Origin: Anaerolineales bacterium
GTDB lineage: Bacteria; Chloroflexota; Anaerolineae; Anaerolineales; UBA6663
Reading direction: 5' to 3'
Assembly: GCA_020850595.1 (NCBI GenBank)
Contig: JADZEK010000105.1
Coordinates: forward strand, 22,025 to 86,024
Length of the DNA stretch: 64,000 nt
Under the pieces are notes generated by a model that had not been told where the DNA came from, ran no database searches, and was given only the letters and a program-made list of their open reading frames with translations. The number at the start of each line of letters is the position of its first letter. Within the stretch, counting starts at the first letter, position 1. A program made the translations under genes and the position numbers. Shown here piece after piece: positions 3,442 through 63,855 of the stretch.

Positions 3442-5277
3442 GTGAAGCCCAACCACCATGCTGTTTTTCGCCGTCTTTTGCGCTTACCGAGCCGGGCAGC
3501 GCTCATCTGCCTGGCGCTGCTGGCGGCCTGCGGCCCACGCCCCGCCCCCACGCCGCACACGCCCCGCGCCACGCCGGTCAGCGCCGGAGCGGTGGCGATA
3601 GACCCGGCGGGTTTGCGCCTCGCCGCCGTCAACCCCGACTCAGGCTCGGTGACGCTGGTGGACCTCGCCACGCTGACGATACAGGCCGAAGTGGCGTTGG
3701 GCACGGACAGCGACCCGCGCACGCTCAGCTTCACGCCTGACAGCACGACGCTGTTGGTGGCCGAACACGGCGCAGGCACGCTGGCCGTGATTGACGCTGC
3801 GGCGGGCACGCTGGCGCGCACCGTCACCGTGGGCGCGCTGCCCTATGGCGTGGTGGCCGGGAGCAGCCGTGCTTACGTCAGCCTGGCCGGCGCGCCGCAG
3901 GTGGTGGTGGTGGACCTGGGCACGTGGGCCGTCACGGCGGCCGTGCCCCTGCCGCCCTTCCCCACCGGGCTGGCGCTGGCGGCGGGCGAGGCCGCGCTGT
4001 ACGTCACGCACCTGTACTCCGGCGCGGTGAGCGTGCTCGACACGGCCACGCTGACGGTCACGCAGACGCTCGCGGCCGCGCCGGAAGCGAACCTGGCGCA
4101 ATTCATTGCGTTGAGCAGCGACGGCACGCGCGCCTATGTGCCACAGACGCTGGCCTTCTCTGACCGCACGGACCTGGCTTACGACAACGCCGTGCGGCCC
4201 ATCGTCGGCGTGCTGGCCTTGAGCGGCGGTGAGCCTCCGGCCCCACTGGCCCTCTCCACGCCGGAGCAGGCCGTCAACCTGCCCTTTGCCGTCGCGCTCG
4301 CGCCCGAGTGCGCCAGCCCGCCCGCGGCGTCAGCAGAGGGGTGCGCCGCGCGCCTGTACGTCGCCAATGCGGGCAGCGATGTGGTGACCGTGCTCGACCC
4401 GGCCAGCGGCGCAACGCTGGCCGCGCTTCCCACCGGCCGCAACCCCCGCGGCCTGGCCCTGAGCGCGGATGGCGCGCGCTTGTACGTGGACAACGTGCTC
4501 GACGGCACGCTCGACGTTTTTGATACTACCGCGCTCAGCCGCTTGCAGCGGCTAACGCTGACACGCCTGCCGCTGGCGGCCGAGGTGCTGGAGGGCAAGC
4601 GCCTGTTCAACAGCGCGCTAGAACCGATGGCCGCCGACGGCTGGCTCTCGTGCGCCACCTGCCACCTAGACGGCGGCGACGACGGCCGCACCTGGGCCGG
4701 TTTTCCCGACGGCCCGCGCAACACGCCCGCGCTCCTTGTCTCGGCCGCCAGCCTGCCGCTGCACTGGAACGGCAACCTGGACGAGTTTCAAGACACCGAG
4801 GCCACCATCCGCGTCATCCAGGGCGGCGCGGGCCTGATCGCAGGCGACGCGCACCTCAGCCTCGGCCCCGCCAACGCCGGGCGCTCGGCCGCGCTCGATG
4901 CGCTGGCGGCCTACCTGGCTACGCTGACGCCGCCGCCCTCGCCCTACGCGCCGGATGCCGAGACGCTGGCCCGCGGCGAGCGCGCTTTTGCCCGCTGGGG
5001 CTGCGCCACCTGCCATAGCGGCGCGGCCTTCAGCGACCAGCAGACCCACACCAGCAGCATCGGTGACGCGGCGCTGGAACGGAACCAGACCGGCCCGCTG
5101 CCGCGCTTCGACACCCCCGCGCTGGCCGGAGCCTGGGCCACCGCGCCCTACTTTCACGACGGCTCGGCCGCCACGCTGCGCGATACGTTCTTCAGCGTGG
5201 GCTTTCACAACATGGGGCCGGCCATGAACCCCGGCGAAGTCATTGACCTGGTGGCCTACATGCAGTCGCTGCCGTAG
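3442..5277 (+). CDS. YncE-like beta-propeller fused to di-heme cytochrome c peroxidase/MauG-like domain
   Basis: Repeated propeller blades (TLYVANAGSDVVTVLDPASG...) plus two CATCH heme motifs; N-terminal signal/lipobox LAACG. Confidence 0.85.
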   Translation: MKPNHHAVFRRLLRLPSRAALICLALLAACGPRPAPTPHTPRATPVSAGAVAIDPAGLRLAAVNPDSGSVTLVDLATLTIQAEVALGTDSDPRTLSFTPDSTTLLVAEHGAGTLAVIDAAAGTLARTVTVGALPYGVVAGSSRAYVSLAGAPQVVVVDLGTWAVTAAVPLPPFPTGLALAAGEAALYVTHLYSGAVSVLDTATLTVTQTLAAAPEANLAQFIALSSDGTRAYVPQTLAFSDRTDLAYDNAVRPIVGVLALSGGEPPAPLALSTPEQAVNLPFAVALAPECASPPAASAEGCAARLYVANAGSDVVTVLDPASGATLAALPTGRNPRGLALSADGARLYVDNVLDGTLDVFDTTALSRLQRLTLTRLPLAAEVLEGKRLFNSALEPMAADGWLSCATCHLDGGDDGRTWAGFPDGPRNTPALLVSAASLPLHWNGNLDEFQDTEATIRVIQGGAGLIAGDAHLSLGPANAGRSAALDALAAYLATLTPPPSPYAPDAETLARGERAFARWGCATCHSGAAFSDQQTHTSSIGDAALERNQTGPLPRFDTPALAGAWATAPYFHDGSAATLRDTFFSVGFHNMGPAMNPGEVIDLVAYMQSLP

Positions 5278-6149: not shown

Positions 6150-7961
6150 ATGGCCCCGCGCCGCTCGCCGTTCGACTGGCTCGCCTGGCTGCTCAACCTC
6201 GCCACCCTCGGCGTGGTCGGGCTGGTCGCGGCCGTCTTCCTCAACCCGGCCCTGGTGCCGCCCGCCTGGCGGCCAATTAGCGGCCAGGCCCCGCCGCCCA
6301 CCGCCGTGGCCTTCGTGCCAGAGACCGCCAGCGCCACGGCCACCCAGCCGGTGGTCTTCCCGACCCTCCCGCCGGAGTGGACGGCCACGCCCACGCTGGA
6401 GTTCCCGCCAACCGAGACGCCCGACCGCTACCCCACCTTTACCCCCAGCGGCGGTCCCGCCCCCACCTTGCTGCCGAACCTGAACAGCACGGCCGAGGCG
6501 GGCGTGGACGGCCGCGTGGTGGCCGACGCGGGTTTCCTGCGGGTGCGCGCCCTGGCCGGCACCGCGGGCGAGATCATCGGCAACCTCTCGCCGAACACTG
6601 CCGTGCGTATCATCGGCCGCAGTGAACAGAGCGATTGGCTGGAGGTCATCGGCCCGGACGATCTGCGCGGCTGGGTCATGGCCCCGTTCGTGGATGTTTA
6701 CATCAATTTGCTCGCGGTGCCCGTCACCGCCGGGGCCGTGCTGGACGCGACCGCCACACCCGTCATCCCCGACGAGGCCAAGGTGTCAGATGCGGGCGAC
6801 AACCTGCGGCTGCGGGCCTCGCCCGGCACAGCCGGCGCCATCATCGGCAACCTGCCCGCCGGCATGGTGCTCGACCTGGTGGGCCGCACCGCCGACAGCG
6901 CCTGGCTGCAAGTGCTCACGGCCGACAACCGCTCCGGCTGGGTGATGGCGCGCTACGTTGACCTCTACATGGATGTGGGCAAGCTGCCGGTGACCGGCGT
7001 GCCGGTGGACGCGGCCGGCACCGCGCCGCCTTCCGGTGGACAGCCCGCCACCACGGTGGTCGTGGCCTTCTTGCCCAGTGCGACCTCCACCGCGAGCAAG
7101 ACGCTCGTGCCGCCCACCCCCGTTCCGCCGACCGCCACCCACACCCCGCCGCCGACGCCGACCAACACCAACCCGCCGCCACCCCCGCCGCCCAGCGAGG
7201 TGATCTTCGGCATCAGCCAGCACTCGCGCGACCTGTACCTGTACGGCCAGAGCCTGGGCAACCACGCCAACGTCTTCGCCAAAATCGGCGACTCGCTCAC
7301 CGTCGCGCCACAATTCTTATTACCCATTGGCTACGGCGCGTACAACCTGCGCGACTACAGCGGCTTGCAGGAGGCGGTCAACTTCTTCGGCGCGGGGCAG
7401 GCGCGCATCGGCAACCCGTTTGTGAACACCTCGCTGGCGGCCAAGGGCGGCTGGTCATCGTTCTCGCTGGTGGCCGGCTCCACCTCCAACAAGACCTACT
7501 GCGGGAACAACGAGTCGCCGGTGCAGTGCGAGCTGCGCCTCAACCGCCCGGCCATCGCGCTCATCCTGATCGGCACGAACGACCTGACCAGCAGCACGGC
7601 CGAGGGCTACCAGGCCAACCTGCGCCGCATCGTGGCCGACTGCGTCAGCCAGGGCGTCATCCCGGTGCTGAGCACGCTGCCGCCCTACCTGCGCGCGGGC
7701 TACGAGGGCTACGCGGGCCGCGTGGCTGAGTTCAACGGCTACATCATCGCCATCGCGCAAGAGAACGACCTGCCGGTGTGGAACCTGTGGGCCGCCGTGC
7801 AGAGCCTGCCCAACCGGGGCCTGGGCGGCGACGGCGTGCACCTCTCCGTGGCGCCCGACGCGGCCGACTTCACCGCCGCCAACCTGCAATACGGCAGCAC
7901 CGTGCGCAACCTCACCGCGCTCCAGCTCCTCGATGCCCTGTGGCGCGGCGTGATGCAGTAG
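6150..7961 (+). CDS. membrane-anchored protein with two SH3b domains, T/P-rich linkers and C-terminal SGNH-like domain
   Basis: ORF from 6144 (TTG) or 6150 (ATG); two 'LRVRA/LRLRASPGTAGxIIGNL' SH3b repeats; GDSL block 'KIGDSLT', 'LIGTNDL', 'DGVHL'. Confidence 0.8.
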   Translation: MAPRRSPFDWLAWLLNLATLGVVGLVAAVFLNPALVPPAWRPISGQAPPPTAVAFVPETASATATQPVVFPTLPPEWTATPTLEFPPTETPDRYPTFTPSGGPAPTLLPNLNSTAEAGVDGRVVADAGFLRVRALAGTAGEIIGNLSPNTAVRIIGRSEQSDWLEVIGPDDLRGWVMAPFVDVYINLLAVPVTAGAVLDATATPVIPDEAKVSDAGDNLRLRASPGTAGAIIGNLPAGMVLDLVGRTADSAWLQVLTADNRSGWVMARYVDLYMDVGKLPVTGVPVDAAGTAPPSGGQPATTVVVAFLPSATSTASKTLVPPTPVPPTATHTPPPTPTNTNPPPPPPPSEVIFGISQHSRDLYLYGQSLGNHANVFAKIGDSLTVAPQFLLPIGYGAYNLRDYSGLQEAVNFFGAGQARIGNPFVNTSLAAKGGWSSFSLVAGSTSNKTYCGNNESPVQCELRLNRPAIALILIGTNDLTSSTAEGYQANLRRIVADCVSQGVIPVLSTLPPYLRAGYEGYAGRVAEFNGYIIAIAQENDLPVWNLWAAVQSLPNRGLGGDGVHLSVAPDAADFTAANLQYGSTVRNLTALQLLDALWRGVMQ

Positions 7962-11024: not shown

Positions 11025-12212
11025 CTACTTCTCCATCGCCGCCAGCGCGGCATAGGCGGGCAGCGTCACCGCCGGGTCGCCCGCCGCAGTGGGGCGGGTG
11101 ATGGCCCACCAATACTGCTCGTTGGCTTCCGTCCACTCTTGGTCGGCGATGTAGACCATGCTCATCAGGCCGATCCAGGGCGACCAGTGAGCCTGGGCGT
11201 ACTGATAGGCGCGCACCAGGTAGTCGGCCTGGGTGGCCTGATCTACCGCGTACCAGTTGTAATCCGTGTGCGCCGGGTTGGTGTCGGTGGTCCAGCCCAT
11301 CTCGGTGATGGCGATCTGCTTGTCGGCGTCGCCGTACGCCAGCATCAGCGCGCGCACTTCTTCCACGTGCCGAAAACACCAGGTGGAGGATTGCCAATAC
11401 GCATCGGCGCGGCACTCGGCCGGGGAGCGTTCGGGCGCGTTGCCATACCCCGGCGCGTGCGCGCCCAGCAGGTCGAAGTAGGGCGCGCCGCCTGCCTCGT
11501 ACAGGCCGCGGTAGAAGGCCAGGTCGGCCATCGCGACGGCCGGATCGTCCAGGTCGGTGGGCGCCAGCCCGGCCGAGATGACGATGGCGTGGGGGTCAGC
11601 GGCCTTGATCGCCAGGTAGCAGGGCTTGAGCAGGGCGAGGTAGGCCGCGGGGTCGGGCGGCTGGTTGCCCCACTCGCGGGCCAGGTTAGGCTCGTTCCAC
11701 ACTTCGTAGGCGGCGATGCGGCCGACGTAGCGCCCAGCCAGCGCCCCGCAGAACTCGGCGAACAGCGCCGGGTCGTTGGGCGGCGTGTCTACCACGTGGT
11801 CGAGCAGGGCCGGGTCGTCCACGGCCCAAAAGGGCGTGCCGTCGAGGCGCGCCAGAATTCGCAGTCCGCGCGCCTCGGCCAGCGCCACCACGCCGTCGGG
11901 CCGAAACCAGTCGTAGCCGCCGCGGCTGCCGGAAATGTTGCGCCAGGAGAACTGCTGCTTGAGCCAGCCAAAGCCCAGTCCGGCCACCAGGTCGGCGTCG
12001 CGCGCGCCGGTCTTGTTGTCGGTCTGCCACCACAAGAACGCCTGAATGCCGTACTCTGGCGAGGCCAGGCGCGGCAGGGGATAGAGCCGGGCGGGGGTCG
12101 GCGGCGGCGTGGGGGTGCTGAGTACAGCAGCGGGCATCGGGGCGCAGGCCGCCAGCAGCAGGGCGAACAGCCCGGCCAGCGCCGCCCGGCGCCGGGTGGG
12201 CGGGCGCATCAC
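11025..12212 (-). CDS. secreted cellulase-like (clan GH-A type) glycoside hydrolase, lipoprotein
   Basis: Lipobox LLLAACAP; acid/base motif AAYEVWNEPNLAREW; nucleophile-like IAITEMGW; GTG 12212 or ATG 12209. Confidence 0.8.
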   Translation of the reverse strand: MMRPPTRRRAALAGLFALLLAACAPMPAAVLSTPTPPPTPARLYPLPRLASPEYGIQAFLWWQTDNKTGARDADLVAGLGFGWLKQQFSWRNISGSRGGYDWFRPDGVVALAEARGLRILARLDGTPFWAVDDPALLDHVVDTPPNDPALFAEFCGALAGRYVGRIAAYEVWNEPNLAREWGNQPPDPAAYLALLKPCYLAIKAADPHAIVISAGLAPTDLDDPAVAMADLAFYRGLYEAGGAPYFDLLGAHAPGYGNAPERSPAECRADAYWQSSTWCFRHVEEVRALMLAYGDADKQIAITEMGWTTDTNPAHTDYNWYAVDQATQADYLVRAYQYAQAHWSPWIGLMSMVYIADQEWTEANEQYWWAITRPTAAGDPAVTLPAYAALAAMEK

Positions 12213-57377: not shown

Positions 57378-59246
57378 CTACGCCTTCACCCGCACCCGGT
57401 CCAAAATCTCCGCGGCCAGGTCGTAGCGGCCGAAGGGCGGCATGAGGTAGACGCCCTGCACCAAGCCGCGCAGCTCGGTCAAAAGCTCAACGGCCAGGGC
57501 GACACCCTCGGCGGCGGCGGCCGGGCCTTCACCGGCGGCGGCCAGGCGCGCGCGCAGCGCTTCGGGGATGACAATGCCAGGGACTTCATTGTGCAGGAAG
57601 GCGGCGTGGCGGGCGTTGAAGAGCGGCAGCACGCCCACCAGCAGCGGCAGGCGCAGCGGGCCGTACTCGGCCGTGTAGCGGGTGATGAAAGCACGGGCCA
57701 GCGCCGCGTCGTAGACCGGCTGGGTCAGGCCGAAATCGGCCCCGGCGGCGATCTTCTTGTGGAGCGTGCGCAGTTCCTTGGCCGGGTCGGCGGCGGCCAG
57801 GTTGACGGCGCAGCCCACCAGGAAGGAGGTGGGCTGGCCGATGGCGGCGCCGGCCGCGTCCAGGCCGGCGTTGAAGCGCTGCTTGATGAGCTTGATGAGG
57901 CCGGAGGGCACCACGTCGAAGTTGTCGTTGGCGGTAGGGTAATCGCCGATGGCGGCGGGGTCGCCCATGACGACGAAGACGTTGCGCACGGCCAGGGCGT
58001 GGGCGGCCAGCAGGTCGCCCTGCACACGCAGCAGGTTGCGGCCGCGCGTGGGGAAGTGCAGCACGGTTTCCAGGCCGACCTCGCGCTGGATGAGGTGGGC
58101 GGCGGCCCAGGCGCTCATGCGCATGCGGGCCATGGGCGCGTCGGCCACGTTGATGACGTCGGCCCCGGCTTCGGCCAGCAGGTGCGCGCCCGCCAACAGC
58201 TTATGCGGGTTGAAGCCGTGCGGCGGGTCCATCTCCACGCCGACGACGAAGCGCCCGGCGGCCAGCTGCTGGGCCAGGCGGGTGGGCTGGTCAGGCGCGG
58301 CAGCGTCTTCGCGGCGCTCGGCCTCGACCACCTCGGCCAGGGCGCTCGCGGCGGGCCGGGGCGCGGTATCTAGCGCGCGGCGCATGGCGGCGATATGGGC
58401 GGGCGTGGTGCCGCAGCAGCCGCCCACCAGCCCGGCCCCGGCCTCCACGAAAGCGGTGGCGTACTCGCCAAAGTATTCGGGCGTGGCGGGATACATGATG
58501 CGCCCGCCGACGTGCTCGGGCCACCCGGCGTTGGGCTTGACCAGGAAGCAAGCTCGCGGCGCGACCTGGCGCAGTGCGCGCAACAGGCGCAGCACCTGCG
58601 CCGGGCCGCCGGAGCAGTTCACGCCAATGACGTCGGCGCCCAGGCGGGCCAGCTCGCGGCCGACCTGGGCCGGGCCGTCGCCCAGGAGCGTGCGATCGTC
58701 GCGGGTGAAGGTCATGGTGGTAATGACCGGCAGGCCGCCGACGGCGCGGGCGGCCTCGGCCGCGGCCTTGACCTCGTACAAGTCGCTCATGGTCTCGATC
58801 AAGATCACGTCTACCCCGGCGGCGGCCAGCGCGCTGATCTGCTCGTGAAAGGCGGCGACAGCCTGCTCCGGCTTGACGCGGCCGAAGGGGGCCAGGCGCA
58901 CGCCCAGCGGCCCTACGTCGCCGGCGATGAGCACGGGCCGGCCAGAGCCGGCGACCACCTGGCGGGCCAGGGCGACGGCGGCGGCGTTGACCTCGGCCAC
59001 GCGCTCGCCCAGGCCGGCGGGGGCCAGCTTGTAGCGGTTGGCGCCAAAGGTGTTGGTGACGATCAGGTCGGCCCCGGCCTCAATGTAAGCGCGGTGCACG
59101 TCGGCCACCACGGCGGGCCGGGCGAGGTTGAGGGCGTCGAAACTGTGATCAAGGGCCACGCCGCGCGCGTGAAGCATGGTACCCATGGCGCCGTCAGCCA
59201 GCAGCGGGCCGTGGGCCAAGCGGTCGAGGAAGGTCGGCATGGTCAA
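57378..59246 (-). CDS. bifunctional homocysteine S-methyltransferase / 5,10-methylenetetrahydrofolate reductase
   Basis: LLADGAMGTMLHARGV...GGCCGTTPAHIAAM (Hcy domain) + VGVEMDPPHGFNPHKL...FLVGCAVNLAA (MTHFR domain). Confidence 0.95.
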   Translation of the reverse strand: MTMPTFLDRLAHGPLLADGAMGTMLHARGVALDHSFDALNLARPAVVADVHRAYIEAGADLIVTNTFGANRYKLAPAGLGERVAEVNAAAVALARQVVAGSGRPVLIAGDVGPLGVRLAPFGRVKPEQAVAAFHEQISALAAAGVDVILIETMSDLYEVKAAAEAARAVGGLPVITTMTFTRDDRTLLGDGPAQVGRELARLGADVIGVNCSGGPAQVLRLLRALRQVAPRACFLVKPNAGWPEHVGGRIMYPATPEYFGEYATAFVEAGAGLVGGCCGTTPAHIAAMRRALDTAPRPAASALAEVVEAERREDAAAPDQPTRLAQQLAAGRFVVGVEMDPPHGFNPHKLLAGAHLLAEAGADVINVADAPMARMRMSAWAAAHLIQREVGLETVLHFPTRGRNLLRVQGDLLAAHALAVRNVFVVMGDPAAIGDYPTANDNFDVVPSGLIKLIKQRFNAGLDAAGAAIGQPTSFLVGCAVNLAAADPAKELRTLHKKIAAGADFGLTQPVYDAALARAFITRYTAEYGPLRLPLLVGVLPLFNARHAAFLHNEVPGIVIPEALRARLAAAGEGPAAAAEGVALAVELLTELRGLVQGVYLMPPFGRYDLAAEILDRVRVKA

Positions 59247-59442: not shown

Positions 59443-59991
59443 TCATTGCTTCTCCACCGGCGGCGCGGCGGCGGCGTAGCGCCGCACCCGCACGCGGGCC
59501 TCGCGCAGCTCGCCGGCGAGCGCCCAGCCCCAGGCGGGGCGCAGGTGGGGGCGCTGATGCGGGGTGAGCACCCACAGCGCCGGGGCCAGGCGACTGAGCT
59601 GATAGGCCAGCCGGGGCAGGCGCGACGGCGCCAGCAGATGCAAGGCATAACTGCACACAATGAGCGAATAGGCGCGGCCGTCGAGCGCGCCTGCGGCGAT
59701 GGCCTCAAAGGTGAAGGTCTCGGCCGGGCGGCCGGTGCGCTCGGCGTAGGCGGCGGCGGTGTAGGGGTCAATGCCCGCCACCTGGGCCGCGCCGGCCGCG
59801 CGCAGGGCGAGCGTGGCCTCGCCGGAGCCGCAGGCCAGGTCGAGCACGCAGGTCAGGTCGGGCGCCCAGGCGGCGACGGCGGCGCGCAAAGCCCGGCGCA
59901 CCGCCAGTTCATGCGGGTTGCGGTAGGCGGCGCCGAACTGCTGGTAGTAGCCGGCGACGCCATGCTGTTCGTACTCGCGACGGATGGACAC
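59443..59991 (-). CDS. class I SAM-dependent methyltransferase
   Basis: CVLDLACGSGEATLAL motif I; GRAYSLIVCSYALHLL. Confidence 0.88.
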   Translation of the reverse strand: MSIRREYEQHGVAGYYQQFGAAYRNPHELAVRRALRAAVAAWAPDLTCVLDLACGSGEATLALRAAGAAQVAGIDPYTAAAYAERTGRPAETFTFEAIAAGALDGRAYSLIVCSYALHLLAPSRLPRLAYQLSRLAPALWVLTPHQRPHLRPAWGWALAGELREARVRVRRYAAAAPPVEKQ

Positions 59992-60005: not shown

Positions 60006-63000
60006 CTACGGCTGCGCGGCGAGCTTGCTCATCTCGCGCTCCAACTGGTCGAGGCGGCTGCCGCCGATGGTGAAGTAGCGCGCCTCGGGATGGTGAACGA
60101 TGATGGCGGCCGTGGACTGCTCGGGCACCAACTGACCGGATTCGGTCAGGGCCATGCCAAGCTGCTGCGCGGCGGGCAGGAGGGCGAAGACCTTGGCGTG
60201 GTCGTCCAGGTCGGGGATGGCGGGGTAGCCCCAGGAGTAGCGCTTGCCGCGGCCGGGCGCGAGGTTGAGTTCGCGGCGCAGGTGGCGGTGCGCGTACTCG
60301 GCGGTGGCCTCGGCGGTCTGCACCGCCAGGCCGTGCAGGAAGTAGGCGTCGGAGTAGTTATTCTGCGCTTGCAGGGCGTCGAATAGCTCGGTGGGGCGCG
60401 GGCCGAGGGTGACCACCTGGAAGGCGACCACGTCCATGACGCCCGAGTCTACTGGGGCGAAGTAGTCGGCCAGGCACAGGTTATCTTGCCCCGGCTGGCG
60501 CGGAAACACGAAACGCTGGGCCACCTCCGGGCGGCGGCCGTCTTGCGCCGAGGCCGGATCGTAGACCAGCAGTTCGTCGCCGTTGGATTGCGCAGGCCAA
60601 TAGCCGTAGACGGCCCGCGGCGCGAACCAACCCTCGGCGCGGGCGCGGCGCTGGAGGCCGGCCAGCTTGTCGTTGAACTCAGCCCGCAGCGCGTCCCATT
60701 CAGCGCCGTGGGCGTTCTTGGCCCCCCAGGAGAGGCGGTAAAGCTCGTCCAGATCAAGGCACTGGAAGACCAACTCCAGGGGCATGCGCTCGATCAGGCG
60801 CGGCCCCCACACCGGCGGCTCGGGGATGGGCGCGCGGCGGGCGGCTATGGCCGAGCGGCGGCCCGCGGCGGCGCGCGGGGCGGCGGCCTGCTCGTGAAGG
60901 TCGCGGGCGGCGTCGCGGTGGAGGCGGGCGACGAAGTCCGCGCGCTGGGCAGGGTCTTGCAGGCGGTCAATCGTTTCCAGGCCCTCAAAGGCGTCTTTGC
61001 AGTAGAACACGCCGGGCGCGTAGGGCACGGTCTGCTCCGGGTCTACGTAGGTGATGCGGCGGCCGAACTTACGGTTGATGGCCGCGCCGCCGATGAGGAC
61101 GGGGATGTTCAAGCCGCGCCGGTGCAGCTCCTGCACGATGAGGGGCATTTGCTTGCTGGTGCTGACCAGCAGCGCGCTCAGGCCGATGGCGTCGGCGTTG
61201 ACCTCCACCGCCTTGTCTATGATGACGTTGGCGGGCACCTGCTTGCCCAGGTCGTGCACGGTGTAGCCGTTGTTGGCGACGATGGTCTTGACCAGGTTCT
61301 TGCCGATGTCGTGCACGTCGCCGTAGACGGTGGCGAGGACGAGCGTGCCCTTGGTGACGCCCGCCAGCCGCTCGAGGAACTGCTCCACGTGGGCAACGGC
61401 GCGCTTCATCACCTCGGCCGATTGGAGCACAAAGGGCAAGATCAGCTCGCCTGCGCCGAACTTGTCGCCGACTTCTTTCATGGCGGGCAGCAGCACGGTG
61501 TTGAGGATGACGACGGCGGCGCGCGAAGTGGCCGGGTTGGGGAAGGCAAAATCGGCGGCCTGCTGGAAGCGCGCCACGCCGGTGTCGGCGCGGACGAGGC
61601 GCTCCACAATCTCGTCCAGGTCGGCTTCCACGCCGTCTTTCTTGCGGTGCAAGATGCGCCAGTGGACGCGCTGCTCGGCGGTCCGGCCTTCGGTCTCGTC
61701 CAGCGTCTCGGCGGCTTGCAGCTTGACGGCTTCAAAGAAGCTGATGAAGCGCGCCAGCGCATCGGGCCGGCGGTTGAAGATCAGGTCGTCGGCCAGCGCG
61801 CGCTGCTCGGCGGGGATTTCGGCGTAGGGCGTGATGTGCTTGGGGTTGACAATCGCCATATCCAACCCGGCCTGCACGCAGTGGTAGAGGAAGACGCTGT
61901 TGAGCACGGCGCGGGCGGCGGGCTTGAAGCCAAAGGAGACGTTGCTGACGCCGAGCGAGGTGAGCACGCCTGGCAGCGCGGCCTTGATCTGGCGCAGGCC
62001 GGCGATGGTCTCGACGGCAGAGTTGGCAAACTCGGCCTCGCCGGTGGCGAGGGTGAAGGTTAGGTCGTCGAAGATCAGCGCGTCGGGGCGCAGCCCATAC
62101 TCTTCGACCACGATGGCGTGAATCTTCTCGGCCACGGCGCGCTTGCGGTCGGCGGTCTTGGCCATGCCGGCTTCGTCAATGGTCAGCGCGATGACGGCTG
62201 CGCCGTAAGCCCTGACGAGGGGCACCACGGCGTCAATGCGTTGGCGGCCGTTTTCCATGTTGATGGCGTTGACGATGACGCGGCCGGGGGCGGCCTGGAG
62301 CGCCTGGGCCACAACCTCCGGCTCGGTGGTATCCACCACTAGCGGCGCTTCGAGGCTCAGGCTGAGCTGTTTGACAAGGCGGCGCATCTGCTCGGCTTCG
62401 TCGGCGCGCTCGGTCAGGGCCACGCACACATCCAGCGTGTGCGCGCCGCTCTCAATCTGTTCACGGCCCAAGAGCACCATGCGGTCATAATCGTCGGCCA
62501 GCAGCAGTTCCTTCATCTTGCGGCTGCCCTGCGCGTTGAGGCGCTCGCCGATGAGCATGGGCGGCGGGTCTTGCTGCAAGGCGGTGGCGCGGATGGCGGA
62601 GGAGACGAGCGTGAGTGGTTGGGTCGGCCGAGGCGCTTGCCGCCGCCCGCCCACCTGCTCCACCAGCAGTTGGATATGCTCGGGCGTCGTGCCGCAGCAG
62701 CCGCCGACCGTGCTGACACCGTAGCGCGTGACGAATTCGCCCAACTCGGCGGCGAAGGGAGCCGGTTCGAGCGGGTAGACGGCCTGGCCGTCCACATTGA
62801 GGGGCAGCCCGGCGTTAGGGATGCACGCGACGGGCAGCGCGGCGTTTTCGGCCAGGTAGCGGATCGGCTCGCGCATGTGCTCGGGGCCGGTGGAACAGTT
62901 GAGGCCGATGACGTCAATGGGCATGCGCTCCAGCGTGGCGAGCGCCGCGGCGATGTCGGTGCCGAGCAACATGCGGCCGGTGGTGTCGAGCGTCACCTGG

Positions 63001-63593
63001 GCTTGCAGAGGCACGCGCCGGCCGGCCTGTTGCATGGCCTGCTGGAGGCCCAGGATGGCGGCCTTGACCTCCAGGATGTCTTGCGAGGTCTCGATCAGCA
63101 GCAGGTCCACGCCGCCTTCAAGCAGGCCCAGGCCCTGTTCGCGAAAGGTCTCGGCCAGCGCGTCGAAAGTGATGTTGGAGAGCGCGGGGTCGTCGGCGGA
63201 GAGCAGCAGGCCGCTGGGGCCGATGGAGCCGGCCACGAAGCGCGGGCGGGCGGCGGTGGCGTAGTGGTCGGCGCAGCGGCGGGCGAGTTGGGCGGCGGCG
63301 CGGTTAAGCTCGATGATTTGGTCTTGCAGGCCGTACTCGCGCATGGTCAGGCGGTTGGCGCGGAAGGTGCAGGTCTCGAGCACGTCAGCGCCGACGGCCA
63401 GGAAGCTGTTGTGGACGTCGGCGACGACCTGCGGCTTGCTGAGGACGAGGTGGTCGTGGCAGCCCCACAGTTTTTCGCCGCCGAAGTCGCTCGCGGCGAG
63501 ATTGAGGCGTTGCAGGCTGGTGCCCATGGCGCCGTCGAAGACCAGCACGCGCTCGTTCAGGGCGACCAGGTAGCGATTGTGAAAGTCGGGCAT
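60006..63593 (-). CDS. metH: cobalamin-dependent methionine synthase
   Basis: Start MPDFHNRYLVALNERVLVFDGAMGTSLQRL; VYGDVHDIGKNLV B12 motif; C-terminal activation domain GKRYSWGYPAIPDLDDH. Confidence 0.97.
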   Translation of the reverse strand: MPDFHNRYLVALNERVLVFDGAMGTSLQRLNLAASDFGGEKLWGCHDHLVLSKPQVVADVHNSFLAVGADVLETCTFRANRLTMREYGLQDQIIELNRAAAQLARRCADHYATAARPRFVAGSIGPSGLLLSADDPALSNITFDALAETFREQGLGLLEGGVDLLLIETSQDILEVKAAILGLQQAMQQAGRRVPLQAQVTLDTTGRMLLGTDIAAALATLERMPIDVIGLNCSTGPEHMREPIRYLAENAALPVACIPNAGLPLNVDGQAVYPLEPAPFAAELGEFVTRYGVSTVGGCCGTTPEHIQLLVEQVGGRRQAPRPTQPLTLVSSAIRATALQQDPPPMLIGERLNAQGSRKMKELLLADDYDRMVLLGREQIESGAHTLDVCVALTERADEAEQMRRLVKQLSLSLEAPLVVDTTEPEVVAQALQAAPGRVIVNAINMENGRQRIDAVVPLVRAYGAAVIALTIDEAGMAKTADRKRAVAEKIHAIVVEEYGLRPDALIFDDLTFTLATGEAEFANSAVETIAGLRQIKAALPGVLTSLGVSNVSFGFKPAARAVLNSVFLYHCVQAGLDMAIVNPKHITPYAEIPAEQRALADDLIFNRRPDALARFISFFEAVKLQAAETLDETEGRTAEQRVHWRILHRKKDGVEADLDEIVERLVRADTGVARFQQAADFAFPNPATSRAAVVILNTVLLPAMKEVGDKFGAGELILPFVLQSAEVMKRAVAHVEQFLERLAGVTKGTLVLATVYGDVHDIGKNLVKTIVANNGYTVHDLGKQVPANVIIDKAVEVNADAIGLSALLVSTSKQMPLIVQELHRRGLNIPVLIGGAAINRKFGRRITYVDPEQTVPYAPGVFYCKDAFEGLETIDRLQDPAQRADFVARLHRDAARDLHEQAAAPRAAAGRRSAIAARRAPIPEPPVWGPRLIERMPLELVFQCLDLDELYRLSWGAKNAHGAEWDALRAEFNDKLAGLQRRARAEGWFAPRAVYGYWPAQSNGDELLVYDPASAQDGRRPEVAQRFVFPRQPGQDNLCLADYFAPVDSGVMDVVAFQVVTLGPRPTELFDALQAQNNYSDAYFLHGLAVQTAEATAEYAHRHLRRELNLAPGRGKRYSWGYPAIPDLDDHAKVFALLPAAQQLGMALTESGQLVPEQSTAAIIVHHPEARYFTIGGSRLDQLEREMSKLAAQP

Positions 63594-63610
63594 ACCATTC
63601 CTCAGGCCGG

Positions 63611-63648
63611 GGAAACAAAAACGCCGCTTCAAGATGAGCAGCGGCGTA
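63611..63648 (-). terminator. riboswitch-controlled intrinsic terminator ACGCCGCT-gctcatcttga-AGCGGCGT + TTTTTGTTT
   Basis: 8-bp stem and U-tract on minus strand directly upstream of metH. Confidence 0.9.
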
Positions 63649-63669
63649 CACGGCGGTGGGCGGCCAACG

Positions 63670-63781
63670 CTCATCTTCCAGAATACTCTGCCGGATTTGG
63701 CACCAGGCGGTCGCACCGTACGGGGCGCTTCCGTGGTTGCCGAGGCTTCATCGGGCCGGTCCCTCCGCCTCTCTGGATGAG
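63670..63781 (-). ncRNA. SAM-I (S-box) riboswitch
   Basis: Minus strand CTCATCCAGAGAGGCGGAGGGACCGGCCCGATGAAGCCTCGGCAACC...GGTGCCAAATCCGGCAG...GGAAGATGAG matches S-box core; P1 CTCATC/GATGAG. Confidence 0.97.
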
Positions 63782-63826
63782 TGTGCGCGGCCAAACAGGC
63801 GCCGCGCGATTAGGTTGTTGAAGGTG

Positions 63827-63855
63827 ATCTTACTATGTTATCGGAGGGGTGTCAA
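63827..63855 (-). promoter_or_regulatory. metH promoter TTGACA-17-TAAGAT
   Basis: Consensus -35 with exact 17-nt spacer about 45 nt upstream of riboswitch P1. Confidence 0.85.

Follow-up and report, generated by a model that had tools for sequence, protein, structure and literature searches.

A predicted SAM-I riboswitch attenuation unit upstream of metH in an Anaerolineales bacterium

SAM-I (S-box) riboswitches, represented by RF00162, combine a full aptamer, a P1 switching helix, an antiterminator built from the P1 3' strand, an intrinsic terminator and a target in methionine biosynthesis, and the locus described here shares all of these. In Chloroflexi, riboswitches that act by transcription attenuation may be more frequent than expected, as judged from small samples (PMC2258182). 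The locus lies in a 64-kb stretch of DNA (hereafter, the window) from an Anaerolineales bacterium of the phylum Chloroflexota, whose nearest named relatives are Anaerolineales MAGs of the same phylum. On the minus strand, positions 63855-63613 carry a promoter, an aptamer, an antiterminator, a terminator and a U tract, and this leader ends 20 nt 5' of a complete gene for cobalamin-dependent methionine synthase, metH. A preliminary description had read promoter, S-box aptamer, antiterminator and terminator on this strand, and every part was found in its place.

Promoter and aptamer of the leader

The sigma-70-type promoter (63827..63855, minus strand) comprises TTGACA at 63855-63850, a 17-nt spacer and TAAGAT at 63832-63827, the same elements as proposed in the preliminary description. 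It matches the consensus at 10 of 12 positions, a score for which a shuffled kilobase held a mean of 0.0 sites, and it is kept in the closest metH relative. Promoter scores of at least 10 were found upstream in 55% of the leaders read versus 1% of shuffles.

The aptamer occupies positions 63668..63783 of the minus strand. The covariance-model search suggested as a check in the preliminary description gave a match to RF00162 at 63783-63668 with 86.9 bits (E 3.2e-19), about twice the gathering score of 44.4 bits and covering model positions 1-108 of 108. It is the sole Rfam match within the window. The P1 helix is formed by 63783-63776 and 63675-63668, and the 4-bp pseudoknot between CCGG in the P2 loop and CCGG in J3-4 is intact. 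This CCGG/CCGG pseudoknot is common to 61 of the 83 scorable leaders, with a compensated UCGG/CCGA version in 8 further ones. The aptamer sits in the 5' leader of a methionine gene, and the metH start codon lies about 75 nt past it. Judged by its sequence, the RNA is a member of the SAM-I riboswitches and is predicted to bind SAM selectively.

metH and the neighbouring genes

The position of the leader in front of metH, as first described, is borne out by a full-length match of the gene product (60006..63593, minus strand, start ATG 63593) to TIGR02082, with 1061 bits, over the cut-off and covering 1-1182 of 1182. All five Pfam modules are present (S-methyl_trans, Pterin_bind, B12-binding_2, B12-binding and Met_synt_B12). 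A probable Shine-Dalgarno sequence, GAGG (63600..63603, minus strand), is located 6 nt ahead of the start codon and outside the terminator. Only 14 nt past metH, a gene on the same strand (59443..59991) encodes a class I SAM-dependent methyltransferase-like protein and is probably cotranscribed with metH. After a gap of about 200 nt, it is followed on the same strand by a gene for a bifunctional homocysteine S-methyltransferase/methylenetetrahydrofolate reductase (57378..59246, NF006396 over cut-off), which is possibly cotranscribed as part of the metH operon.

Of note, the metH frame remains open upstream across the terminator and the aptamer, up to a TTG at 63794 (63594-63794, minus strand). 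This long open frame is probably due to chance in G+C-rich DNA. TTG 63794 was ruled out as the metH start because GAGG and ATG 63593 fit and the homology begins at this ATG.

Terminator and antiterminator in the window and in related leaders

The intrinsic terminator hairpin (63621..63647, minus strand, -13.6 kcal/mol) has 8 perfect base pairs between 63647-63640 and 63628-63621 and an 11-nt loop, and the U tract TTTTGTTT (63613..63620, minus strand) comes directly past the last stem base. An alternative 7-bp stem at 63643-63622, returned by a simple terminator scan, was rejected in favour of the perfect 8-bp stem. The antiterminator 5' strand AAGATGAGCGTTGGC (63663..63677, minus strand) includes the P1 3' strand, and the 3' strand GCCGCTGCTCATCTT (63631..63645, minus strand) takes 6 nt from the terminator 5' arm and 9 nt from its loop. 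An intrinsic terminator and an antiterminator using the P1 3' strand are both present, as in leaders of the attenuation type. The 14/15 pairing with two G-U pairs that had been claimed is exact: 63677-63663 pair with 63645-63631 through 12 Watson-Crick and 2 G-U pairs, with 1 mismatch. The duplex has an energy of -20.5 kcal/mol. When the segment that separates the P1 strand from the terminator 3' arm was dinucleotide-shuffled 5000 times (mean -11.1, sd 2.1), a single shuffle did as well, and the pairing exceeds chance.

Nine of the 14 pairs, in a run of nine Watson-Crick pairs, fall inside the 11-nt loop, which contains GCUCAUCUU, and only 5 pairs (6 nt) fall in the 8-nt 5' arm. The description of the pairing as covering the terminator 5' arm and loop holds, with the nuance that only 6 of the 8 nt of the arm are involved and that the main block lies in the loop. 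Exclusion of the terminator stem therefore depends on these five pairs together with the order of synthesis and the topology. The loop share of 0.64 is the highest among leaders whose antiterminator is at -12 kcal/mol or stronger, the median across all leaders of the order being 0.23. Members of the same family carry the same pairing from the arm into the loop, less strongly (CUUCUCAUCC).

RF00162 is present in 55 of 61 related genomes. Among 101 leaders read, counting that of the window, 21 stand before metH, and a simple scan detected a terminator with a U tract after 97 of the 101 aptamers. A regular-expression scan of named metH loci placed an aptamer core near at least 14 of 79; this is a lower bound, since merged match starts and variable P3/P4 make the scan overlook known examples. 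In a set of 97 leaders from the order, the mean energy of the own antiterminator was -13.8 kcal/mol versus -11.75 +/- 0.21 kcal/mol for permuted partners, and none of 5000 permutations was as strong as the real partners, a significance that is overstated because the leaders are related. The direction is clear despite this relatedness: own partners pair better than swapped ones. In the closest metH relative, Anaerolineales bacterium SJ338 (JADLEU010000145.1; metH 82% identity), the leader (L132) resembles that of the window in its promoter (TTGACA-17-TAACAT), its terminator with a U tract and its aptamer, which is nearly identical except at the P3 tip, whereas the terminator stem and antiterminator sequences are unlike those of the window and the antiterminator has 10 pairs in the arm and 1 in the loop. 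In this closest metH leader (L132/L045), the continuation of the P1 3' strand is complementary to its own terminator. As the P1 3' strand and the terminator arm and loop change together among relatives, the mutually exclusive pairing claimed in the preliminary description is supported.

The genome itself carries three RF00162 matches including that of the window. The other two precede a metK-like gene and a gene for a PLP-dependent Cys/Met-type enzyme, names taken from the translations alone; by their position, these genes may likewise be under SAM-I attenuation.

In a relative of the same family (L212; G005:C410:34000-50500), three SAM-I leaders that are nearly identical to one another (92-95% over 113 nt) were observed at 3508-3626, 7484-7602 and 11466-11583, spaced by about 3.98 kb. 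They stand before an ABC-transporter operon, a ThiS-DUF4395/MoeB-rhodanese sulfur-carrier set, and the genes for a family 2A encapsulin and its cysteine desulfurase cargo. Family 2A encapsulin is rare here: it occurs in a single one of the 61 relatives and, when the cut-off is applied, in one genome among 301 from the phylum. The flank read around a second encapsulin copy (G346, L214) gave no RF00162 match, so the SAM-I/encapsulin pairing is a single case. Our literature search found no paper on a SAM-I switch ahead of an encapsulin operon.

Predicted switching and comparison with known SAM-I leaders

Minimum-energy folding of the growing RNA, in a model that ignores pseudoknot and ligand, gave neither P1 nor the antiterminator before the terminator was complete, and unconstrained folding, which is blind to the tertiary fold of the aptamer, yielded long-range pairings. 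As the expected order of P1 and antiterminator was not obtained in this way, the two were compared with either P1 or the antiterminator imposed. As long as the terminator 3' arm is missing, the antiterminator beats P1 by 10.3 kcal/mol without ligand, a preference that ranks second among 96 leaders. The finished ON and OFF states are 0.3 kcal/mol apart, with a constrained OFF energy of -72.2 that replaces a value of -74.7 obtained by forcing a non-standard A-C pair in P1. Near-equal full states and an early antiterminator preference, as found in these models, would be expected of a kinetic switch that is tipped by its ligand.

It is very probable, from the arrangement of the leader, that the SAM-I riboswitch controls metH through transcription attenuation. 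Under SAM shortage, the P1 3' strand and the following bases would pair with the loop of the terminator and some of its 5' arm once these are transcribed; the terminator stem would then come too late to form, and RNA polymerase would continue into metH. Bound SAM would keep P1 closed, so that its 3' strand is not free and the terminator can form, and transcription would end about 20 nt ahead of the metH start. All evidence that can be checked in the sequence agrees with the SAM-OFF attenuation switch put forward earlier, which shows the parts of the leader, how they complement one another and how they change together in relatives; from these we infer SAM binding and SAM-dependent termination.

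Three other readings were weighed. The nine pairs inside the loop could form a pseudoknot next to the paired terminator stem, leaving a terminator in both states and a switch that is weak, different or absent; the high loop share invites this reading, but five more pairs reach into the stem arm, fitting nine pairs into a closed 11-nt loop would be sterically demanding, and the arm-to-loop pairing of family relatives (CUUCUCAUCC) makes this leader look like the extreme of a common design. We regard such coexistence as very unlikely. Riboswitches act most often on translation in the majority of bacterial groups other than Firmicutes (PMC2258182), but control of metH translation by hiding the ribosome-binding site is highly improbable here: a strong hairpin and a U tract sit between the aptamer and the metH start, and GAGG and ATG follow 10-20 nt past the U tract, outside both terminator and antiterminator. 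It is barely conceivable that the aptamer is degenerate or recognizes another ligand. The SAM aptamer scaffold does have rare variants with a different ligand, such as the spermidine class (PMC10853860), but the full-length RF00162 match, the conserved core, the intact pseudoknot and a methionine synthase as target argue against it.

SAM-I attenuation of metH is thus the preferred reading, and the related leaders lend comparative support to the view that Anaerolineales control metH in this way. These roughly 100 natural leaders also form a set that combines an unchanging aptamer with remodelled terminators and antiterminators. Compared with described SAM-I leaders, that of the window differs in one respect: the 3' strand of its antiterminator is mostly in the loop (9/14) and not mostly in the 5' arm. 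It is unlikely that this marks a variant S-box design in which the antiterminator chiefly captures the terminator loop, blocking or delaying nucleation of the hairpin, instead of consuming the 5' arm. Given the weaker loop tendency of family members, we take this leader as the extreme of a continuous range and not as a new mechanism. The leader is an ordinary, well-formed SAM-I attenuation unit, whose class, kind of target gene and logic are all known already.
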